Source: Lachnospiraceae bacterium
GTDB lineage: Bacteria > Bacillota > Clostridia > Lachnospirales > Lachnospiraceae
NCBI GenBank assembly: GCA_029054245.1
Contig: JAIDFQ010000080.1
Span: 1 to 38,299, forward strand
Direction of reading: 5' to 3'
DNA length: 38,299 bases
The notes under the pieces were generated by a model. It saw only the letters and a program-made list of their open reading frames with translations, searched no databases and was not told the origin of the DNA. Position 1 is the stretch's first letter, and each line of letters opens with the position of its first letter. A program made the translations under genes and the position numbers. Shown in pieces: positions 211-36,867 of this stretch.

Positions 211-612
211 ATGGGATTTTTAGACAAATTGTTGAACAGAGAAACAAATGAAATGCCGAAAACATCTGTTGATGAAGAAGATTGCTGTTTTGACGCCGTA
301 GTGGTGGAGAACCGGATCAAAAAAGTTCTGGAGGAAAACTGGAGCGGATGTGAACTGCGCAAGCATGTACCGGCTGATGCAATTGGCGCAGATGCCATAG
401 AGTGGACATACACTTATGGTGTGTACCGCGAAGGGCAGGCGGTCGTTATGATCAACATTCTGGATAATAAGAATGATTACAAAAGGAAAATTGTTCTGCA
501 GTCTAAGGAAGCATGCATGGATCAGGGAATCGGATACATACATTTCTTATTGCATCTGCCGAATCGCGCCAGCTATATTTTAGAGTGTTTGAGCGAGGAA
601 ATGCCGGCATAA
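211..612 (+). CDS. Small hypothetical cytoplasmic protein, 133 aa
   Basis: The function is unknown. The protein begins MGFLDKLLNRE, has an acidic stretch (EEDCC) near residue 25, and is otherwise a mixed alpha/beta soluble protein with no signal peptide or membrane segment. I chose the ATG at 211 because AGGGGG lies six bases before it and an extended -10 promoter sits just upstream. The frame stays open upstream to a TTG at 133, and a 23-codon ORF with an AGGAGG site starts at 152 in another frame and overlaps this start. The stop codon is about 25 bases before the structured RNA that precedes the reverse transcriptase, so the two loci could share a transcript. No clear terminator separates them. 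Confidence 0.6.
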   Translation: MGFLDKLLNRETNEMPKTSVDEEDCCFDAVVVENRIKKVLEENWSGCELRKHVPADAIGADAIEWTYTYGVYREGQAVVMINILDNKNDYKRKIVLQSKEACMDQGIGYIHFLLHLPNRASYILECLSEEMPA

Positions 613-636
613 ATACGTTGTAACTTCATAATTTTT

Positions 637-793
637 GGGAAAAGAGAGAGAAATGCAATCTTCCGGTTGCGCCCGTCAGGGATGAAGCATGTTTCGTTTT
701 TGAGTGTTTTGCGGGCAATGGAGACATGTTGAATCTGGTAGCAATAAGCACGGCTTTATTGCTTTCAAAGCTGTTTCTCTCTCTTATTTTAAT
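637..793 (+). ncRNA. Structured RNA upstream of the reverse transcriptase (retron/DRT-like)
   Basis: A perfect 12-bp inverted repeat (AAGAGAGAGAAA at 642-653, complement at 774-785) closes a segment that folds into at least three more hairpins. These are 655-670 (six pairs, UUCC tetraloop), 688-695 with 721-728 (eight pairs, one G-U) and 741-747 with 756-762 (seven pairs). The segment ends about 12 bases before the reverse transcriptase start codon. Retrons have an RNA of similar size, closed by a1/a2 repeats, upstream of their RT, and some defence RTs (DRT2, DRT9) also need an upstream RNA. A weak -10 (CATAAT, 627-632) would start the transcript near GGG at 637-639. The fold is visible in the sequence; its role as an RT template or primer is inference. 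Confidence 0.5.
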
Positions 794-804
794 GGGAAAA
801 ATAT

Positions 805-2034
805 ATGGATATGTCGATTTTACATAAGTCTGCCAGTGAGGAAAACTGGCTGGATTTTTTAAATTATAAAATAGAAAAGCAGCATTTAGCAAAAGCAGAA
901 GAAGCGCAGTTTCGCCAGTTCATTGATAGGAAAGCGTATCTTCCTCTTTGCAGGGCATGGCAGGAAGGGCGGTTCCCTTCTGAACTTCCCGTAAAGAGAA
1001 CGGTGAATAAGGAAGGTACAGAAAAGAAAAGAGTAGTATATTCTTTTGAAGGGGAGGAGGGCATCTTCCTTAAATTCATTGCCTTTTGCTTATATCGATA
1101 TGATGACCTTTTTTGTGATAACTGTTATGCGTTTCGCCGCGGAATTGGTGCAGGGAGCGCCATCACGCGGCTTAAGATGGATCAACGTGTTGCGAAAAGT
1201 TATTGTCTGAAAGTGGATATCAGTAACTATTTTAATTCCATTCAAGTGGAAAAACTGTTATCAAAACTGCTTTTTGTGAAAAGAGATGATTATCTGCTGT
1301 ACCAGCTTTTTGAAAAAATTCTTTTAGAGGAGCGGGTGAGGTCAGAAGGCGGAATTCTGTATGAGAAGCATGGCGCTATGGCAGGAACGCCGGTTTCTCC
1401 TTTTTTTGCAAATGTATATTTAAAGGATGTAGATGCCTTTTTTGAGAGAGAAGGTATCCTGTATTTTCGATACTCGGATGATATCCTTTTGTTTGCGGAC
1501 AGCCTGGAAGAATTAAGACTTAGAAAAAAGCAGCTTGAGGAAGCGCTAATGGAGTTGGAACTAAAGTTGAATCCTGATAAAGTCAGCCTATACAGCCCAG
1601 GGGAAGAGATATCGTTTTTAGGATTTTGCTGCCAAAAGGGAGAGATTGATTTATCTGCCCACACCATCAGGAAGACAAAAGCAAGAATCAGGCGGAAAGC
1701 AGAGGCATTACGGCGCTGGCAGAGGGAGAAGGGACTTTCAGGAGAAAAAGCAGCCATAGGTTTTATCCGCGCCATGAACCGGAAATTTTATGGAAGAGGG
1801 GGAAAAGAGAAGGAGTCGTGGGATGAATTCAGTTGGAATAAATGGTTTTTTCCGAATTTGACGGTGGATACAGGACTGCGTGAGATAGATGCCTATATGC
1901 AGGAATATATCCGATATACGGTTACAGGACGGCATTACAAAGGAAATTATAGAATACGGTACGAAACAATGAAAAAATGGGGGTACCGCAGCCTGGTGCA
2001 TGAATTTTACGAATGGAGAAAGCACGATAAATGA
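805..2034 (+). CDS. Solitary reverse transcriptase, 409 aa, not a group II intron enzyme
   Basis: This is an RNA-directed DNA polymerase by its fingers-palm motifs. Residues 72-125 match the RT1-RT2 region (KKRVVYSF, then YAFRRGIG). Motif A is VDISNYFNSI with Asp138, motif B is GTPVSPFFANVYL near 194, and motif C is YSDD at 223-226, followed by FLGF at 271. All catalytic aspartates are present. There is no maturase X or HNH endonuclease domain and no intron RNA. The last 60 residues (FFPNLTV to YEWRKHDK) form an unrecognised C-terminal domain containing VTG at 373-375. No second RT, Avd gene, or template/variable repeat pair was seen, which argues against a diversity-generating retroelement. 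The start at 805 has only a weak site (GGGA at 794-797). With the RNA upstream it resembles a retron or an unclassified defence RT; which group is not decided here. Confidence 0.85.
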   Translation: MDMSILHKSASEENWLDFLNYKIEKQHLAKAEEAQFRQFIDRKAYLPLCRAWQEGRFPSELPVKRTVNKEGTEKKRVVYSFEGEEGIFLKFIAFCLYRYDDLFCDNCYAFRRGIGAGSAITRLKMDQRVAKSYCLKVDISNYFNSIQVEKLLSKLLFVKRDDYLLYQLFEKILLEERVRSEGGILYEKHGAMAGTPVSPFFANVYLKDVDAFFEREGILYFRYSDDILLFADSLEELRLRKKQLEEALMELELKLNPDKVSLYSPGEEISFLGFCCQKGEIDLSAHTIRKTKARIRRKAEALRRWQREKGLSGEKAAIGFIRAMNRKFYGRGGKEKESWDEFSWNKWFFPNLTVDTGLREIDAYMQEYIRYTVTGRHYKGNYRIRYETMKKWGYRSLVHEFYEWRKHDK

Positions 2035-2262
2035 ATTTGGCTGTAACGAAAGTTCATTAAGGGACGGCGCCTACAGGACAAAAGCCTATAACGTATATAA
2101 ATAGGTAGAGATATGAGTCGATATTTGTTGAAAAATTTCTGACTATCATATATGATAAAGAGTAGGCATAAAGATGTGGTGATATGAAAAATGCAGGAGG
2201 CAGTTACATATGCAGCAAGATGCCGGGTTATAACAAAAAGATACAATGCATTGGAGGATATA

Positions 2263-3306
2263 ATGAGGAAAAGAGAAACAATATTGATTGTGGATGATGT
2301 TGATATAAATCGCATCATGCTGGCAGAAATTTTTCGGGATAATTATGAAATAGTGGAGGCAGCAGGTGGACAGGAAGCGATTAATATTTTGGATGAAAGA
2401 AAAGATATTGTTGCCGTGCTGTTGGACTTGCTGATGCCAGATGTAGACGGTCTTGAAGTGCTCAGGGCAATGAACCAAAATGGTAAGATAAGAAGAGTTC
2501 CGGTATTCTTAATTACGGCGGCTGAAAGTCAGGAAATGCTGCTGGAAGGATATAACTTAGGGGCAGTGGATGTAATAAGGAAGCCCTTTGTGACACAGTT
2601 TTTAAGGTGTAGGATTAGCAGTGTCATTGAATTGTACGAATATCGAAACGCTTTGGAAAAAAGGGTGCGCAGTCAGGCAAAGAAATTAAATGAACTTATG
2701 ACATCGATTGTGGAAGTGCTTGCTACGGCTATTGAATTCAGGGATTGTGAATCTGGCGAACATGTTAAGCGTATCTGTGTTCTGACGAGGGAACTGATGC
2801 TCGAGGTGATAAGGCTTTATCCCGAGTACACGCTGGCGGAAGCCGAAATTGAAAAAATCGTTACGGCGGCAATGCTTCATGATGTAGGGAAGATAGCGAT
2901 ACCGGACGGCATCCTGAATAAACCGGGCAGGCTGACACAGGAAGAGTTTGAAGAGATGAAGCTGCACACGGTAAGGGGATGTGAGCTGCTCTCAAGCATA
3001 CCCAATATCATGGATGAGGGAATCTTCCAATATGGATACGATATTTGCCGGCATCACCATGAGCGCTGGGATGGAAAGGGATATCCAGACGGACTTAAGG
3101 GCGACGAGGTATCTATATGGGCGCAGGTGGTGGCAGTGGCAGACGTATATGACGCGCTGATTTCGCCGCGCGTGTACAAGAAAGCATTTTCCCATGATAC
3201 AGCTGTAAACATGATTTTTGAGGGCGAGTGCGGTGCATTCAATCCGAAAGTGCTGGAAGCTTTCAAGAATATCATGGATGGATGGGATGCGGCGGATGAA
3301 GAATAA
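2263..3306 (+). CDS. Response regulator with HD-GYP output domain, 347 aa
   Basis: This is a two-domain signalling protein. The N-terminal receiver (about 5-125) has the acidic pair D11-D12, phospho-acceptor D55, T85 and K107 followed by Pro. The C-terminal HD-GYP domain (about 145-340) has HD at 206-207 in LHDVGKIAIPD, the HHHERW run and GYP at 273-275, so all metal ligands look intact. HD-GYP proteins hydrolyse cyclic di-GMP to pGpG or GMP, so this one probably lowers c-di-GMP in response to a sensor kinase. No kinase gene is nearby. I chose the ATG at 2263 for the GGAGG five bases upstream; a longer frame from 2191 lacks such a site. The next gene follows after 21 bases and is probably co-transcribed. 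Confidence 0.9.
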   Translation: MRKRETILIVDDVDINRIMLAEIFRDNYEIVEAAGGQEAINILDERKDIVAVLLDLLMPDVDGLEVLRAMNQNGKIRRVPVFLITAAESQEMLLEGYNLGAVDVIRKPFVTQFLRCRISSVIELYEYRNALEKRVRSQAKKLNELMTSIVEVLATAIEFRDCESGEHVKRICVLTRELMLEVIRLYPEYTLAEAEIEKIVTAAMLHDVGKIAIPDGILNKPGRLTQEEFEEMKLHTVRGCELLSSIPNIMDEGIFQYGYDICRHHHERWDGKGYPDGLKGDEVSIWAQVVAVADVYDALISPRVYKKAFSHDTAVNMIFEGECGAFNPKVLEAFKNIMDGWDAADEE

Positions 3307-11333: not shown

Positions 11334-12572
11334 TCATTTTGGACAAATGTTTAACCGAACAAATTTCTTTTTCCCTATTTTCAATACATCTCCACTTTCA
11401 ATAGGCGCATCCAGTGAAGTGGCTTTTTCTCCGCTTATGGAGATTCCGCCTTGGGTAAGCAGACGGCGGAACTCATTGTTGCTTGCGGCAAAACCGCCTT
11501 TTACAAGAAAGGGAACTGCCTCCTGTAAAGTGCTGTGGTTTGACGGAAGGGAAAGGGTGGGGACTTCGTCTGGAATTCCTTTATTTGTAAAAGCCTGGTG
11601 GAAAAATTCCTCGGCAGCGGTAGTTTCCCAAACCGTGTGGTATAGGGAAGTTATGGTGCGGGCAAGAAGAAGTTTGCAGTCTTTTGGATTGCTTCCGCCA
11701 TCCAGAGAGGCTTTTATTTTATCCAATTCATCCGGTAAAATGTCGGTTGCCAGCTCAAAATAGCGGATGATGAGCTGGTCGGGTACTTCCATTACTTTTT
11801 TGAACATGATGTTTGCCTCTTCCTGTACGCCAATATAATTTCCAAGACTTTTGCTCATTTTTTCCACGCCGTCAAGACCTTCTAATATGGGCATGAAGAG
11901 GGCAGCTTGGGGTTCTAAGTTTAAAGATTTTTGTAAGGTGCGTCCCATCAGGATATTGAAGGTCTGGTCGGTGCCGCCAAGCTCAAGGTCAGCATTTATG
12001 GCAATGGAGTCGTAAGCCTGCATGATGGGATAAAAGAATTCATGTAGACCAATAGGGGTATTGTGGGTGTAACGGTTTTGGAAATCATCCCGCTCAAGCA
12101 TTCTGGCGACGGTAGTCGTGGAGGCGAGTCTTATGATTTCCTCCATATTCAAAAGTTCCAGCCACTCTCCGTTATAGCGGATTTGGGTTTTATCTTTGTC
12201 CAGCACGCGGAAGACTTGATCCTGATAGGTCTGGGCATTGATCAGGATTTCCCTGTCTGAAAGCGCTTTGCGTCCCTTTGATTTTCCAGTGGGGTCTCCG
12301 ATGCGTCCTGTAAAATCTCCGATGATGATGACAATGTGATGACCTAAGTCTTGCAGCTGTTTCAGTTTGCGGAGAACGACCGCATGACCTAAATGGATGT
12401 CCGGTGCGCTTGGGTCGAGTCCAAGCTTGACGGTGAGCGGTTTGCCTGTGCGGATGGAATGCGCCAGTTTCTCTCTTAAATCATCCTCTCCGATCAACTG
12501 TGCGGCGCCTTTCAAGATGATGCGCATCTGTCGGTTGATTTCTTCTTCTAAAATAATTTCGTTGGTTATCAT
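11334..12572 (-). CDS. tyrS: Tyrosyl-tRNA synthetase, 412 aa
   Basis: This class I aminoacyl-tRNA synthetase attaches tyrosine to tRNA-Tyr in the cytoplasm. It has the HIGH-type motif HLGH (60-63) following LGLDPSAPDI, the KMSKS loop (238-242), the tyrosine pocket region (ELGGTDQTFN near 197) and a C-terminal S4 RNA-binding domain (about 350-405). The length is normal. The start at 12572 has AAGGAGG upstream; an adjacent ATG five bases earlier stops at once. Expression is controlled by a tyrosine T-box leader just upstream. Confidence 0.95.
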   Translation of the reverse strand: MITNEIILEEEINRQMRIILKGAAQLIGEDDLREKLAHSIRTGKPLTVKLGLDPSAPDIHLGHAVVLRKLKQLQDLGHHIVIIIGDFTGRIGDPTGKSKGRKALSDREILINAQTYQDQVFRVLDKDKTQIRYNGEWLELLNMEEIIRLASTTTVARMLERDDFQNRYTHNTPIGLHEFFYPIMQAYDSIAINADLELGGTDQTFNILMGRTLQKSLNLEPQAALFMPILEGLDGVEKMSKSLGNYIGVQEEANIMFKKVMEVPDQLIIRYFELATDILPDELDKIKASLDGGSNPKDCKLLLARTITSLYHTVWETTAAEEFFHQAFTNKGIPDEVPTLSLPSNHSTLQEAVPFLVKGGFAASNNEFRRLLTQGGISISGEKATSLDAPIESGDVLKIGKKKFVRLNICPK

Positions 12573-12591
12573 TTCATTTTTCCTCCTTAAC

Positions 12592-12622
12592 AAAAAACTC
12601 CCGTCCTTCAATAGGACGAGAG
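12592..12622 (-). terminator. T-box attenuator terminator
   Basis: On the minus strand, CTCTCGTCCT pairs with AGGACGGGAG (10 pairs, one U-G), followed by six U residues (12597-12592). It lies about 20 bases before tyrS. The alternative antiterminator would use the T-box sequence at 12629-12643. Confidence 0.85.
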
Positions 12623-12892
12623 CTAAATCTCGTGATACCACCTAATGTTCATAAACAACTCGCGCTGTTTACCTCTTCGAGTACGACCCCTTGGGCTTAT
12701 ACTCTAGCATGTTAACGGATGCAGGAACCGTCGCAGCCTACTAAATCATGAGATTATTTGGTGCGAAGCTCAAAGATGTATTCACATATGGCTTCCCATG
12801 CGCCTCTCATCAACCGGCAGCTTTCTGTATGTTTCACCTTATGCTACTTCTTCTTATCATTGCTGTTAAGTTCAATCACTTGTATGAAATTA
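12592..12892 (-). promoter_or_regulatory. Tyrosine T-box riboswitch
   Basis: The minus strand carries AGGTGGTATCACGAG (12643-12629), a variant of the T-box core that pairs with the acceptor end of uncharged tRNA, followed by the terminator at 12622-12592. Upstream, the codon UAC (12780-12778) in the context GAATACATC is a good specifier for tyrosine, matching the tyrS gene it controls. When tRNA-Tyr is uncharged, the antiterminator forms and tyrS is transcribed. The upstream limit is set by the promoter at 12899-12927. Confidence 0.9.
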
Positions 12893-22384: not shown

Positions 22385-25161
22385 TGGAAAATACATGTAA
22401 GCGCATCACGATTGCTCTGCTCGCGCACGTGGATGCCGGAAAGACGACCCTTTCGGAGGGAATGCTTTATCTAAGCGGCAGTATCCGCAAGCTTGGCAGA
22501 GTGGATAAAAAGGATGCCTTTTTAGATTCCTACGGACAGGAAAGGGAGCGGGGTATCACAATCTTTTCCAAACAGGCGATTGTAAGAAAGGGACAGGCAG
22601 AAATTACCCTGCTTGATACCCCCGGGCACGTGGATTTTTCAGCGGAGATGGAACGTACGCTGCAGGTTCTGGATGCCGCGGTTCTGGTAATCAGCGGAAG
22701 CGACGGTGTGCAGGGACATACCCTTACCTTGTGGAGGCTGTTAAAACGTTACGACGTGCCGGTTTTTCTTTTTGTCAATAAGATGGATCAGCCGGATATC
22801 GATCGAAAGAAGATTTTTCAGCAGTTGAAAGAGCAGTTGTGTGAAGCCTGCGTTGACTTTTCAGAGCAGGGGACGGAAGACTTCTATGAAAGCATTGCAG
22901 TCTGTGAGGAGGAAGTACTAAATGCCTTTCTTGAAAAAGGCACTATCATGAAACAACAGATACAAAAACTGATCGGGGAAAGGAAATTATTTCCCTGCTT
23001 CTTCGGCTCTGCGCTTAAACTTATGGGTGTGGAGGAGCTGATGGATGGGCTTGAGGAATATATTCCGGCAAAGGAATACCCATCAGCATTCGGTGCCAGG
23101 GTTTTTAAGATCACGCGGGACGGACAGGGAAACCGCCTTACCCATATGAAGATTACAGGCGGCAGTCTAAAGGCGAGGGAGGTACTTACTGGAAGAAGGC
23201 TCCTTGCGGGAAATCCTTCGCAGCAGGAGGCGTGGGAAGAGAAGGTAAACCAGATCAGAATCTATTCAGGAGAAAAATTTGAAGCGGTTAATGAGGCGGA
23301 TGCGGGTACAATCTGTGCCGTTACGGGACTGACAGAGACCTTTGCAGGGCAGGGGCTGGGAAGGGAGAAGGAAGTGATTTACCCAGAGCTTTCCCCAGTT
23401 CTGTGTTATCGTATTCTTCTGCCGGAAGGATGCGACGCGCTGCAAATGCTTCCCAAATTGAGACAGCTTGAGGAGGAGGAACCCCAGCTTCATATCGTCT
23501 GGGATGAAAAGAATCGAGAAATCAAAGCACAGATTATGGGGCAGGTTCAGATAGAAGTTTATGAGAATTTGATCAAAGAAAGATTTGGCATTCCCGTAGA
23601 ATTTGGAACGGGAAGTATTGTCTATAAAGAGACCATTGCAAATACGGTGGAAGGAGTGGGACATTTCGAGCCTTTGCGCCATTATGCGGAAGTGCATCTG
23701 CTCTTAGAGCCGGGAGAGGCAGGAAGCGGGCTTGTGTTTGAGGCGGACTGCAGTGAGGATATTCTGGATCTGAACTGGCAGAGGCTGGTACTGACCCACC
23801 TTGAAGAAACGGAGCATCCAGGGGTGCTGGCAGGGGCTCCGGTTACAGATATGAAGATTACCCTAAAGTCGGGGCGTGCCCACCAGAAGCACACGGAGGG
23901 TGGGGACTTCCGACAAGCGACCTACCGGGCGCTGCGGCAGGGGTTGATGCAGGCGGAGAGCGTGCTCCTCGAGCCTTATTATGATTTTTGCCTGGAGGTG
24001 CCAGATGCTATGGTGGGGCGAGCCATGACGGATCTTAATCAAAGGCATGGTACCTTCACCTTGAACCATACCGGGGAAGGTATGGCAACGCTTAAAGGAA
24101 TGGCGCCTATGGCGCTTTTACAGGAATATCAGCAGGAGGTACTTGCTTACACGAAGGGGGAAGGGCAGTTGTACTGTTCCATGAAGGGATATTATCCCTG
24201 TCACAACACGGAAGAAGTGCTGGAAAGAACAGGATATGACCCTTTGCGGGATGCCGATCATCCATCTGCATCTATATTTTGCGCCCACGGAGCGGGCTTT
24301 ATTGTGGAGTGGGATGAAGTTCCTTCGTATATGCATTTAGAGAGCTGTCTTTGTAAAAAAAGGGATTCGGCTGCGGATGAGGAATACTGGGATAGATATA
24401 TGGGAGAGAAGAGCTTAACTGTAAGCGGCAGAGAGCGCTTTGGAGGAAATAGGGAAGGCGTCAGAAAGGAAGAGTGGATTGGACAGGATGAGATTGAGGA
24501 AATTTTAAGCCGCACATCCCATGCAAACCGAAAGGAAAACAGGACAGGAACAAGGATAGGATGGAAGAGGACAAAGGATCAGGCGGATCGGACAAAAGGG
24601 CAGCCCCAGGTAAGAACTTATCAGCCTGCCCAGAAAAAAGAAGAATATCTGCTGGTGGATGGGTACAATGTAATCTTTGCATGGGACGAGCTGCGCAAGC
24701 TGGCAGAACGGAATCTGGACGGGGCAAGAGGCAGGCTCCTTGATCTTCTGTGCAATTATCAAGCGGTCAGAAAATGTAGTCTGATTGCCGTATTTGATGC
24801 ATATCGTTTGGCAGGGCATCCCACGGAAACGCTGGATTATCACAATATTCATGTGGTATATACAAAAGAAGCGGAAACGGCAGATCAGTATATCGAAAAG
24901 TTTGCCCATGAGAACAGCAGGAAGTTCGATGTGACGGTTGCCACGTCAGACGGACTGGAACAGATCATTATTATTGGCGAGGGATGCAGACTGATTTCAT
25001 CGCGGGAACTGAAAGAAGAGATGGAACGGGCTTCCAGTCAGATACTGGAGGACTTTCAAAATACACATCCGGGTAGGAAAAATTCGCTAAAGGACATGCT
25101 TCCCGATGAAACATTAAAGGAGATGAATGCATTCAGGAAAAATTTAGAGGAACATTCCTAG
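22384..25161 (+). CDS. Ribosomal-protection-type translation GTPase fused to a YacP/Rae1-type NYN ribonuclease, 925 aa
   Basis: Residues 1 to about 655 are an EF-G/Tet(M)-like translation factor: G1 AHVDAGKT (14-21), RGIT (56-59), G3 DTPGH (78-82), G4 NKMD (132-135), then EF-G-like domains II to V ending in MKGYYPC. A basic linker (about 656-750, with EEWIGQDEIEEIL) leads to an NYN domain of the YacP type (753 to about 900): VDGYNVIF with D759, FDAYR with D805, ETADQYIEK with D834 and ATSDGLEQ with D856. The four acidic residues expected for nuclease activity are all present. Bacillus Rae1 (YacP) cuts mRNA in the ribosomal A site, and Tet(M)-type GTPases bind near the A site. A ribosome-directed mRNA cleavage role is inference; true tetracycline resistance is not shown. 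It starts at a GTG overlapping the previous stop. Confidence 0.85.
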   Translation: MENTCKRITIALLAHVDAGKTTLSEGMLYLSGSIRKLGRVDKKDAFLDSYGQERERGITIFSKQAIVRKGQAEITLLDTPGHVDFSAEMERTLQVLDAAVLVISGSDGVQGHTLTLWRLLKRYDVPVFLFVNKMDQPDIDRKKIFQQLKEQLCEACVDFSEQGTEDFYESIAVCEEEVLNAFLEKGTIMKQQIQKLIGERKLFPCFFGSALKLMGVEELMDGLEEYIPAKEYPSAFGARVFKITRDGQGNRLTHMKITGGSLKAREVLTGRRLLAGNPSQQEAWEEKVNQIRIYSGEKFEAVNEADAGTICAVTGLTETFAGQGLGREKEVIYPELSPVLCYRILLPEGCDALQMLPKLRQLEEEEPQLHIVWDEKNREIKAQIMGQVQIEVYENLIKERFGIPVEFGTGSIVYKETIANTVEGVGHFEPLRHYAEVHLLLEPGEAGSGLVFEADCSEDILDLNWQRLVLTHLEETEHPGVLAGAPVTDMKITLKSGRAHQKHTEGGDFRQATYRALRQGLMQAESVLLEPYYDFCLEVPDAMVGRAMTDLNQRHGTFTLNHTGEGMATLKGMAPMALLQEYQQEVLAYTKGEGQLYCSMKGYYPCHNTEEVLERTGYDPLRDADHPSASIFCAHGAGFIVEWDEVPSYMHLESCLCKKRDSAADEEYWDRYMGEKSLTVSGRERFGGNREGVRKEEWIGQDEIEEILSRTSHANRKENRTGTRIGWKRTKDQADRTKGQPQVRTYQPAQKKEEYLLVDGYNVIFAWDELRKLAERNLDGARGRLLDLLCNYQAVRKCSLIAVFDAYRLAGHPTETLDYHNIHVVYTKEAETADQYIEKFAHENSRKFDVTVATSDGLEQIIIIGEGCRLISSRELKEEMERASSQILEDFQNTHPGRKNSLKDMLPDETLKEMNAFRKNLEEHS

Positions 25162-25778
25162 CGGATGTGTTCTTTTAAGTTGTCATCTTCAAAATCAAAC
25201 ACACATCGTTCAAATGCGTTTATGATGTGGGTATCCATATATTTGTCGTAGCGTTTGTGCTTTCGACCGTAGGACATATGTACATGTCCATGGAGAAAAA
25301 ACTTAGGTTTATATTTCTCGATTAAGGATCGGAACACCTGAAATCCCTGATGGGGAAGATCCCGCCCATCATTTAATTGATAGGCGGGAGAGTGGGTCAC
25401 TAAGATGTCAAAGCCATGGTGACGCAGCAGTTGGAACCATAAACGTGCGACTCTCTTTTTCATGCCTAGCTCTGTGTACTGGTGCGGTCCCTCACGGTAC
25501 CGCATAGAGCCGCCGAGCCCCAGAATGCGGATGCCATTATGGACATAAATCTGGTCTTCAATGCAGATGCATCCTTCCGGCGGATTCTTTTCGTACTTTC
25601 CGTCATGATTTCCGTGCACATACAAAACCGGCACATTGGAAAGGGTCACAAGGAAAGAGAGGTATCGGGGATCTAAATCACCGCAGGAGATAATCAGGTC
25701 GATTCCCTCCAGCTTGCTTTTCTCGTAAAAATCCCAAAGGTATTTTGATTCTTCGTCTGCAATTGCAAGTATTTTCAT
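25158..25778 (-). CDS. Calcineurin-like metallophosphoesterase, 206 aa
   Basis: The metal-binding motifs are present, somewhat modified: AIADEE where others have D-x-H, then CGDLDPRY, GNHDGKY, THSPAYQ and LHGHVHMSYG. The altered first motif (Asp kept, His replaced) suggests changed metal use or lower activity. The substrate is unknown. It is the last gene of a leftward operon, eight bases behind the ParB-like/BMP gene, and overlaps the end of the opposing GTPase gene by four bases. Confidence 0.8.
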   Translation of the reverse strand: MKILAIADEESKYLWDFYEKSKLEGIDLIISCGDLDPRYLSFLVTLSNVPVLYVHGNHDGKYEKNPPEGCICIEDQIYVHNGIRILGLGGSMRYREGPHQYTELGMKKRVARLWFQLLRHHGFDILVTHSPAYQLNDGRDLPHQGFQVFRSLIEKYKPKFFLHGHVHMSYGRKHKRYDKYMDTHIINAFERCVFDFEDDNLKEHIR

Positions 25779-35456: not shown

Positions 35457-36158
35457 ATGCAGGCATGGTTTGAAAAGGTTGGAGAAATGTTTAAGACAGC
35501 GTTTATTGCCGGAGACCGGTGGAAGCTGTACATAAGCGGTCTGGGAGTGACGTTGAAAATTGCCTTTTTTGCGGCAATTCTTGGACTTTTGATCGGTACG
35601 GTTCTTGCGCTTATGAAGCTGTCCACAACAAGGAAAGGCAAAAAGGCTATCTGGGCGAGAATTGCCAATGCTTATATTGATGTCATAAGGGGAACGCCAT
35701 CAGTACTGCAGCTTTTGATCATGTGGTTCATCATTATGGCAAACTGCAAGAATGGTATGCTGGTTGCGATCTTATCCTTTGGCATCAACAGCGGTGCCTA
35801 TGTGGCAGAGATTGTCCGTGCCGGTATTTTGGCAGTAGACAAAGGGCAGACGGAAGCAGGACGATCCTTGGGATTATCCAAGGCACAGACAATGATTTAC
35901 ATTGTCATCCCGCAGGCAGTCAAAAACGTGCTGCCGCCGATTGGAAATGAATTTATTGTCCTCTTGAAGGAGACAGCGATCGTGGGATACGTGAGCCTGA
36001 CAGATCTTACCAGGGCGGCAAATCAGATTTCATCAAGAACATACGAGGCATTTATGCCGTTAATTGGAGCAGCTGTTATTTACTTTGTGATCATTAAGAT
36101 ACTGACCATTTTGCTGGACAGACTGGAGAGGAGGCTTCGTAGAAGTGATAATCGTTAA
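35457..36158 (+). CDS. Amino-acid ABC transporter permease, 233 aa
   Basis: This is a HisM/GlnP-type permease with five helices. The cytoplasmic EAA loop that docks the ATPase is [20 protein letters not shown], and [13 protein letters not shown] is the typical conserved start of the core. It forms a dimer in the membrane with two copies of the ATPase. Its last bases overlap the GTG start of the ATPase gene by 14, so the two are translationally linked. GAGAGGAA lies about ten bases before the ATG. Confidence 0.9.
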
Positions 36159-36867
36159 AGACCTGCATAAAAAATTTGAACATAATCATGTATTGCGCGG
36201 AGTGAGCTATCATATACATCAAGGAGAAAAAATTGTAATCGTGGGTCCCTCGGGCTCGGGGAAAAGTACTTTTTTGCGTTGTTTGAATCTTTTGGAAACG
36301 CCTACAGACGGCGAAATCTGGTTCGATGGGCAGTTGATCACGGATCCGAAAGTCAACATTGACAAAATCCGAGAGCATATGGGTATGGTATTCCAGAACT
36401 TCAATCTTTTCAATAACCTTTCTATCATGGACAATATTACGCTGGCGCCTGTGAAACTGAAGCTGATGAGCAAAGAAGAGGCAAGTGAGAACGCGCTAAA
36501 ACTTCTTGCCAGGGTAGGACTTAGCGAGAAGGCGGATGCTTATCCCAGCCAGCTATCCGGCGGACAGAAGCAGAGGATCGCCATTGTCAGATCCCTTGCT
36601 ATGAATCCCAGAGTCATGCTTTTTGACGAACCAACCTCCGCCCTTGACCCGGAAATGGTTGGAGAAGTTTTAGATGTTATGAAGGAACTTGCAGAAAGCG
36701 GCATGACCATGGTGGTGGTGACCCATGAAATGGGATTTGCAAGAGAAGTGGGAACGAAGGTTCTGTTCATGGATGAGGGAATCATTATGGAAGAAAATGA
36801 ACCTGTGGAATTTTTCAGCAATCCTAAGTGTGAGCGGCTGCAGGACTTTTTGTCTAAGGTTTTGTAA
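36145..36867 (+). CDS. Amino-acid ABC transporter ATPase (GlnQ/HisP type), 240 aa
   Basis: All ABC motifs are intact: Walker [10 protein letters not shown] (near 34-42), Q-loop MVFQNFNLF, signature LSGGQKQR, Walker [15 protein letters not shown] and the switch His in VVTHEMGFA. It powers polar amino acid uptake with the permease and binding protein encoded just before. It starts at GTG 36145 inside the end of the permease gene, about ten bases after GAGGAGG. A terminator follows at 36907. Confidence 0.92.

Follow-up and report, generated by a model that had tools for sequence, protein, structure and literature searches.

Organization of the locus

The window, that is, the whole stretch of 38,299 nucleotides analysed here, comes from a gut-type bacterium and carries near its start three neighbouring elements on the forward strand: a gene for a small protein, termed UAP, a folded noncoding RNA and the gene for a reverse transcriptase (RT). 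The features, with the evidence by which each was assigned, are listed below; percentages give the share of alignment cells that pair.

211..612, plus strand: small partner protein UAP, 133 aa (homologues upstream of the RNA, co-occurrence, omega)
627..632, plus strand: hexamer CATAAT with weak resemblance to a -10 element, nine bases ahead of P1 (chance-level in the window)
640..787, plus strand: UG26-associated noncoding RNA, ends as modelled (Rfam RT-5, covariance models, covariation)
642..653, plus strand: 5' arm of P1, pairing with 774-785 (91.0%; both-side change in 11/12 pairs)
655..670, plus strand: P1b hairpin, 655-660 with 665-670 (89.8%, counting cells with letters on both sides)
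671..676, plus strand: pseudoknot strand 1, GCCCGU (99.3%; both-side change in six of six pairs)
680..683, plus strand: 5' arm of P0, pairing with 733-736 (96.8%)
687..695, plus strand: 5' arm of P2a, pairing with 721-729 (95.9%)
696..704, plus strand: hypervariable bulge GUUUUUGAG, candidate template (identity in close pairs, position)
705..708, plus strand: 5' arm of P2b, pairing with 717-720 (94.4%; double changes in all four pairs)
711..716, plus strand: pseudoknot strand 2, GCGGGC, within the P2b loop, pairing with 671-676
740..763, plus strand: P3 hairpin (helix 8, 96.1%; outer part, helix 7, poorly aligned, 55.2%)
774..785, plus strand: 3' arm of P1, pairing with 642-653
805..2034, plus strand: UG26 reverse transcriptase, 409 aa (UG26 profile, NCBIfam scans, omega)
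1471..1482, plus strand: YSDD catalytic motif, residues 223-226 (motif scan of 75 aligned proteins)
1960..1962, plus strand: Tyr386, candidate protein primer (Tyr in 74/75 aligned proteins)

The reverse transcriptase

A sequence-only reading of this DNA had described the frame at 805-2034 as a solitary YSDD reverse transcriptase. This description holds, with RVT_1 as the sole Pfam match along the 409 residues, and the start may alternatively lie at the ATG at 811, as the UG26 profile begins at residue 3. The C-terminal residues, which the same reading did not recognise, fall within the PADLOC UG26 profile (PDLC03764), which aligns protein residues 3-406 with profile positions 1-397 of 398 at 527.3 bits. 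The kin of the RT were judged by profile scores against the UG and DRT groups, and the runner-up PADLOC models lie well below this value (UG27, 115.8; a generic RT model, 110.9; UG17, the DRT10 group, 101.2; UG4, 100.7; Drt9, 80.9; Drt2, 61 bits), placing the enzyme in UG26. Seven NCBIfam models for intron, retron, Drt and AbiA enzymes also match it, each below its own cut-off, and the telomerase (TERT) profile gives a weak score of 33.6 bits.

All 75 aligned RT proteins scanned with PADLOC, the window's included, match UG26. The first aromatic-x-DD match is YSDD in 62 of the 75, and Y[SAVTCM]DD is found in every one. Tyr386 is the best-conserved hydroxyl residue in the C-terminal part. Omega is 0.04-0.11 for the RT in six pairs, a seventh being saturated, and 0.06-0.16 for UAP in five pairs. 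These values, which are rough because synonymous distances exceed 1 in most pairs, demonstrate purifying selection on both proteins at the codon level. Among the relatives, genome G009 carries an RT copy split into two frames (L013 5985-6907, the same as L028), in which residues from about 191 to 271, YSDD included, are unmatched. More distant UG26-like RTs (356-370 bits) occur in genomes G1122, G1123, G1126 and G1127 without a match to the RNA model described below; the RNA of these genomes may have diverged beyond that model.

The noncoding RNA and its pseudoknot

The Rfam family RF03026 (RT-5) matches positions 667-776 with 51.6 bits, above the gathering cut-off of 45.7, indicating that the RNA upstream of the RT belongs to this family. 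The Rfam model spans 104 positions and leaves P1 and P1b unpaired, and the pairs marked in its displayed alignment do not include the pseudoknot. The perfect 12-bp inverted repeat noted earlier is P1, and the three internal hairpins noted with it lie at 655-670, 687-729 and 740-763. The segment had been said to end 12 bases before the start codon; the actual gap between P1 and the ATG at 805 is 19 bases. The segment folds better than all 200 of 200 dinucleotide shuffles (z -4.25). The minimum-energy fold of the single sequence keeps the pseudoknot helix and loses P2, since the program cannot display both, and both are backed by covariation.

A first covariance model, built from 25 sequences with the window among them, gave 69 matches in 75 sources, and the window RNA scores 106.5 bits against a model from relatives that contains the window itself. 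The sources lacking a match are L007, L011, L030, L041, L068 and L080, of which L007 and L011 hold almost no upstream sequence, while in the genome of L068 the RNA is found 7 kb away. The sequence-only reading had proposed looking in relatives for conserved upstream structure and compensatory changes, and both were found. In the alignment of 100 relatives, pairing is seen in 92.4% of 4369 cells (71.6% after shuffling), 46 of the 49 predicted pairs have changed at both positions, double-change cells number 1070 against 310 in shuffles, and the covariation score is 0.571 against 0.224; when partner columns are shifted by 1-3, pairing falls to 44-51%. The alignment was fitted to a model holding most of the tested pairs, which biases these values in their favour. 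The 99.3% pairing of the pseudoknot is free of this bias because the pseudoknot is absent from the model; its second strand is unaligned in three of the 100 rows. G687-U729 and C688-G728 of P2a are kept in 100/100 rows. The presence of the RNA in all 100 sources is not a frequency, as these were picked for holding it. P1b is reduced or absent in many relatives, with five of its six pairs gapped in 25 to 78 of 100 rows. Taken as comparative evidence, these results establish that the RNA is a gene product with a conserved fold, that it accompanies the UG26 RT, and that it is not a chance structure.

The best promoter score before the window RNA is 8, against a shuffled mean of 7.76. Promoter-like sites scoring at least 10 precede the RNA in 26 of 100 loci, compared with 3 of 100 shuffles, and their -10 elements cluster near the distance seen in the window.

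The partner protein UAP

The sequence-only reading saw no partner effector beside the RT. This view is overturned by UAP, which lies directly upstream of the RNA in the window and has a homologue in the corresponding place, on the strand of the RNA, in 62 of 104 RNA loci. The distance between UAP and RNA ranges from -1 to 111 nt and is 7-73 nt in 60 of the 62. Upstream of the RNA UAP is absent from the other 42 loci, four of which have less than 250 bases of upstream sequence. The proportion of 62/104 is partly circular because 40 of these loci, chosen by an N-terminal motif, supplied the UAP profile, and a few of the 104 loci were fetched twice (e.g. L066/L159, L077/L173). A more independent test is the whole-genome search of 88 relatives, in which UAP occurs in 8 of 9 UG26-positive genomes (the exception being G040) and in none of the 79 negative ones (Fisher 1.4e-10, the genomes not being independent). 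Within the window's genus, the corresponding counts are 7/7 and 0/30, again for genomes that are not independent. The co-occurrence of the genes thus demonstrates that UAP is linked to the UG26 system.

UAP consists of an N-terminal MGFLDKLL segment, a short linker and a C-terminal domain of about 90 residues. In 52 sequences Y122 is invariant, and N118 and R126 are nearly so. The window UAP matches nothing in Pfam, NCBIfam or PADLOC, no Pfam family is matched by more than two of the 52 members even at E 0.1, the name SLATT does not appear among the matches, and a search of solved-structure profiles gave no identity for the protein. In several g341 loci where UAP is missing (L174-L177, L180, L194, L199, L200), the place upstream of the RNA is often taken by a same-strand gene for another protein, which has low-complexity regions and a membrane-like segment.

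Distribution and separation of RNA and RT

The family f66 was surveyed in 115 genomes, with the UG26 profile applied at E up to 1e-30. The RNA model matches 76 of these genomes and the UG26 profile 81; 75 genomes have both, one has the RNA only (G1144), six have the RT only, including the weak matches near 1e-36 in G1157 and G1197, and 33 have neither. G1144 (L124/L208), a genome listed as 93% complete, holds an RT-5-type RNA and no UG26 RT was found in it. Among the 76 RNA-bearing genomes, the RNA lies less than 300 bases from the RT in 46 and 1.2-9.5 kb away in 24. In all 70 genomes so measured, both lie on the same contig and strand; they fall on different contigs in four more; of the remaining two, G1144 has no RT, and G1212, with a partial RT on other contigs, was left out of the distance list. 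A second RNA near the RT was absent from all 23 separated loci searched at E up to 10, the one extra 16-bit match, in L190, being at chance level (E 1). In the maps of 23 separated loci, 108 of the 142 mechanically called frames between RNA and RT lie on the opposite strand, with at least one such frame per map. As the RNA is encoded kilobases from the RT in some genomes, it can act in trans.

Genus g652 has an RT match and the RNA in 23/23 genomes listed (a total inferred from the run G1204-G1226, with the RT of G1212 in pieces). The same gene, k1, lies downstream of the RT in 20/20 fetched loci, which indicates a single site; in most of them TrkA/TrkH-like genes lie upstream, and IstB-like and DnaB_2 genes downstream (Pfam names taken from one locus). 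Elsewhere the distribution is patchy. The UG26 RT occurs in 29/294 relatives, 16/391 genomes of the class and 1/199 of the phylum set, the last being the window's own genome, and the RNA in 22/392 of the order and 32/397 of the family; these sets overlap and the window's genome is in all of them. The window's genus has UG26 in 7 of 37 genomes. A single pattern scan of viral contigs, which detects close kin only, returned no relative, phage records gave 12 distant matches, each below 60% identity, and no place in plasmids reached 80% coverage.

Candidate templates in the RNA

The bulge at 696-704 is one-sided and lies between P2a and P2b. In 116 close pairs (80-99% identical outside the bulge), identity is 0.38 within it, compared with 0.88 at paired positions and 0.85 at other unpaired positions. 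Of the 97 rows measured, 64 have a bulge of 5-8 nt and none has one shorter than 5 nt; bulges of up to 12 nt contain 37% A and 36% U (73% A+U). Together with the covariation, the alignment demonstrates an RNA with a pseudoknot beside a hypervariable one-sided bulge. An A-B-A' arrangement of the kind used by DRT10 and telomerase was tried as a template model and found no support. The test used 78 loops of up to 18 nt from 96 distinct loops, which derive from the 100 rows after three were dropped (second pseudoknot strand unaligned) and one duplicate was removed. The anchored mean of 2.667 compares with 2.562 after shuffling (P 0.07) and with 2.605 after swapping of tails (P 0.20), so that the repeat is not enriched. 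When repeats were allowed at any position of the loop, P was 0.03 relative to shuffles and 0.23 relative to swapped tails, a result counted as negative. The window loop taken alone holds GUUUU-UGAGU-GUUUU, a 5-nt repeat occurring twice, 10 nt apart. As the A-B-A' repeat is unsupported, the assignment of the bulge as template depends on its hypervariability and position.

In g652 and some other rows, an extra hairpin, read by eye from the alignment, lies within the bulge. In the g652 rows L134-L146 and L129, it leaves about 4-5 unpaired bases on the 5' side. Such hairpins leave little single-stranded template, which counts against the bulge. The competing candidate is the conserved pyrimidine tract ahead of the pseudoknot strand (707-710, UUUU in the window), which, if copied as in DRT9, would yield short purine repeats. 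Of the 96 distinct loops, 38 have CUUC, 29 UUUU and 16 CUUU as the four bases immediately ahead of the pseudoknot strand, the tract persists where the bulge carries a hairpin, and DRT9 and DRT3 each copy a conserved short tract. Half of the tract, however, lies inside the covarying helix P2b and must open for copying, and the tract is not universal, in contrast to the poly-U of DRT9. On balance, the pyrimidine tract is considered an improbable template, and the bulge is preferred.

Proposed mechanism

The locus most likely encodes a ribonucleoprotein resembling the Class 2 DRT systems, and by analogy with these it probably works by copying a short segment of its own RNA into DNA. Class 2 DRTs studied so far have cis-encoded RNA templates (PMC12632851, PMC13174585, PMC12483538) and copy a short stretch of them (the same three and PMC12596737). 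Here too the RT is accompanied by a conserved noncoding RNA at its locus, which in 24 f66 genomes is kilobases away. The RT would bind the RNA at 640-787 as a scaffold and copy a short single-stranded stretch beside the pseudoknot, for which the bulge (696-704) is the likeliest candidate. The product would be a short or repeated cDNA, as with Class 2 DRT enzymes. Synthesis may be primed by Tyr386, a suggestion based on the C-terminal hydroxyl residues that serve as primers in DRT9 and DRT10. The cDNA, or its synthesis, would then act with UAP as an accessory or effector, and phage defence would be the likeliest use, by analogy with DRT2, DRT3, DRT9 and DRT10. As a whole, this reading of the locus as a three-part UG26 system of UAP, pseudoknotted RNA and an RT copying a short RNA stretch, probably for phage defence, is the one favoured here, with moderate confidence. 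The UG26 locus offers a testable three-part architecture that includes a partner gene, a pseudoknot backed by covariation and a clearly delimited candidate template.

Alternative explanations

The sequence-only reading compared the layout to retrons and RNA-guided defence RTs. The kinship to RNA-associated defence-type enzymes is borne out by the UG26 match and the covarying RNA, and the retron part is not supported. In a retron, 640-787 would be the msr-msd with its a1/a2 ends, and an inverted repeat enclosing an RNA that precedes a lone RT does resemble this arrangement. However, the St85 retron profile scores 58.6 bits against a cut-off of 235, the NAxxH motif, a hallmark of retron RTs, is absent from the window RT and occurs in 1 of 75 aligned proteins, and Rfam shows no retron RNA in the window at the gathering cut-off, nor at 500-2300 when matches up to E 1 are admitted. 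The RNA might instead be a cis-regulatory leader of the RT mRNA, as suggested by its short distance ahead of the RT gene, 19 bases in the window and under 300 in 46 of the 70 measured f66 genomes. This is contradicted for the 24 genomes with 1.2-9.5 kb between RNA and RT, and further opposed by the opposite-strand frames that intervene in each of the 23 mapped loci, by the promoter-like sites directly before the RNA in many loci, and by the lack of a second copy near the RT in 23/23. Co-occurrence of RNA and RT (75/76) despite this separation argues against both a retron and a cis-acting leader; a leader is judged very improbable and a retron extremely so. A group II intron remnant, which the earlier reading had named as a possible outcome, finds some support in the best solved-structure profile match of the RT, the group II intron RT GsI-IIC (118.9 bits). 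The intron RT profile nevertheless reaches 107.4 bits against a cut-off of 300, Rfam finds no intron RNA in the window, and the UG26 profile scores 527; the probability of a remnant is negligible. All three readings were rejected after testing.

A more serious competitor accepts the same RNA-protein machine and assigns it, at least in f66, a housekeeping or regulatory role in the cell instead of phage defence. The 23/23 listed g652 genomes with RT match and RNA and the shared neighbour k1 at 20/20 loci favour such domestication; near-fixation at one chromosomal site across a genus is unusual for a defence system and counts against that role. Most genes that separate RNA and RT in g341 run on the opposite strand and resemble ordinary genes of the chromosome, genes for HD-GYP signalling proteins are repeatedly found next to the RT on its strand, phage matches are all below 60% identity, and the searches of plasmids and of viral contigs (for close kin only) were negative. 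On the other side, the system is patchy among the window's relatives (29/294, and 7/37 in its own genus), as defence genes are, the characterised systems closest to it in profile score serve defence, and UG26 is reported in viral genomes (PMC10504277). By this kinship, defence is the likelier role, and the cellular reading, kept alive by how widely f66 carries the system and by the absence of defence genes around the window RT, is unlikely, if far from negligible. Wide retention in one related family hints at a role beyond a passing antiviral use, and the spread in one family together with separate RNA and RT genes raises the question of whether a DRT-like enzyme was taken over for a cellular task. 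In its fullest and more doubtful form, the cellular reading would describe a vertically inherited RT ribonucleoprotein, nearly fixed in one genus, with a separately encodable RNA, a hypervariable short template by the pseudoknot and a new small protein, serving a cellular and not only antiviral process.

Relation to known systems

The window RT belongs to the same sequence group as the UG26 RTs (PDLC03764), and the partner protein and separately encoded RNA described here are additional to that group as named. The literature searched gave no functional description of UG26 and no mention of UG26 with DRT (the founding paper of the UG grouping lying outside the search), nor any of RT-5 RNA with a reverse transcriptase or of the RT-5 motif (founding papers likewise outside). 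The RT-5 motif and the UG grouping each reportedly trace to a founding paper. Both the RT group and the RNA family already bear names, and the pseudoknot or the partner may have been noticed earlier.

DRT9, which is UG28, and DRT3a are Class 2 RTs with a noncoding RNA and a short tract in a loop, features seen here as well. The window family differs in lacking a universally conserved poly-U (UUUU in 29/96 loops) or ACACAC, and its RNA measures about 148 nt, compared with 188 nt in DRT9. Telomerase has a pseudoknot in its RNA and a separate RNA gene. It is comparable in working principle only, through a pseudoknot near a short template candidate and, in some relatives, separate genes for RNA and RT; it differs in that the TERT profile score is weak and no repeat pattern is supported here. 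DRT10 (UG17) consists of an RT, a SLATT protein and a 137-nt noncoding RNA (PMC12632851). The window locus shares with it the tripartite layout, an RNA of similar size and a poorly conserved loop beside a stem, and differs in encoding UAP, not SLATT, in its pseudoknot and in showing no A-B-A' enrichment. In DRT2, a pseudoknot of the noncoding RNA contacts the RT (PMC12596737); the window RNA appears too short for the gene-length template of DRT2, and the Drt2 profile gives 61 bits.

Genomic neighbourhood

The genes downstream of the window RT are common to the closest kin (L003, L004, L013). L006 and L008 keep UAP and RT without these genes, indicating that the recurring unit is UAP-RNA-RT; L005 does likewise, with less than 1 kb of downstream sequence. 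In a defence-island scan of 34 other window proteins against PADLOC (some of these frames overlap and may not be genes), no match lies near the RT. The two matches are a PDC-S10 hit of 62.6 bits at about 25158-25778 on the minus strand, 23 kb from the RT, and a short ATPase-like frame at about 36145-36867 on the plus strand (mad3, 126 bits), 34 kb away.

The HD-GYP genes beside UG26 loci lie on the strand of the RT. In the window one is found downstream, at 2251-3306; in L128 and L158 they are upstream of the RNA, and in L160 on both sides. In 11 of the 23 mapped separated loci, these 11 being from g341 (e.g. L163, L181), an HD-GYP gene of the 794-aa type ends 0-4 bases before the RT match. 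HD_5 matches number 0-8 per genome in the six genomes counted. Elsewhere in the window, a T-box leader (RF00230, 107.8 bits) lies at 12609-12869 on the minus strand and overlaps the start of the frame 11334-12641, which is presumably a tyrosyl-tRNA synthetase.
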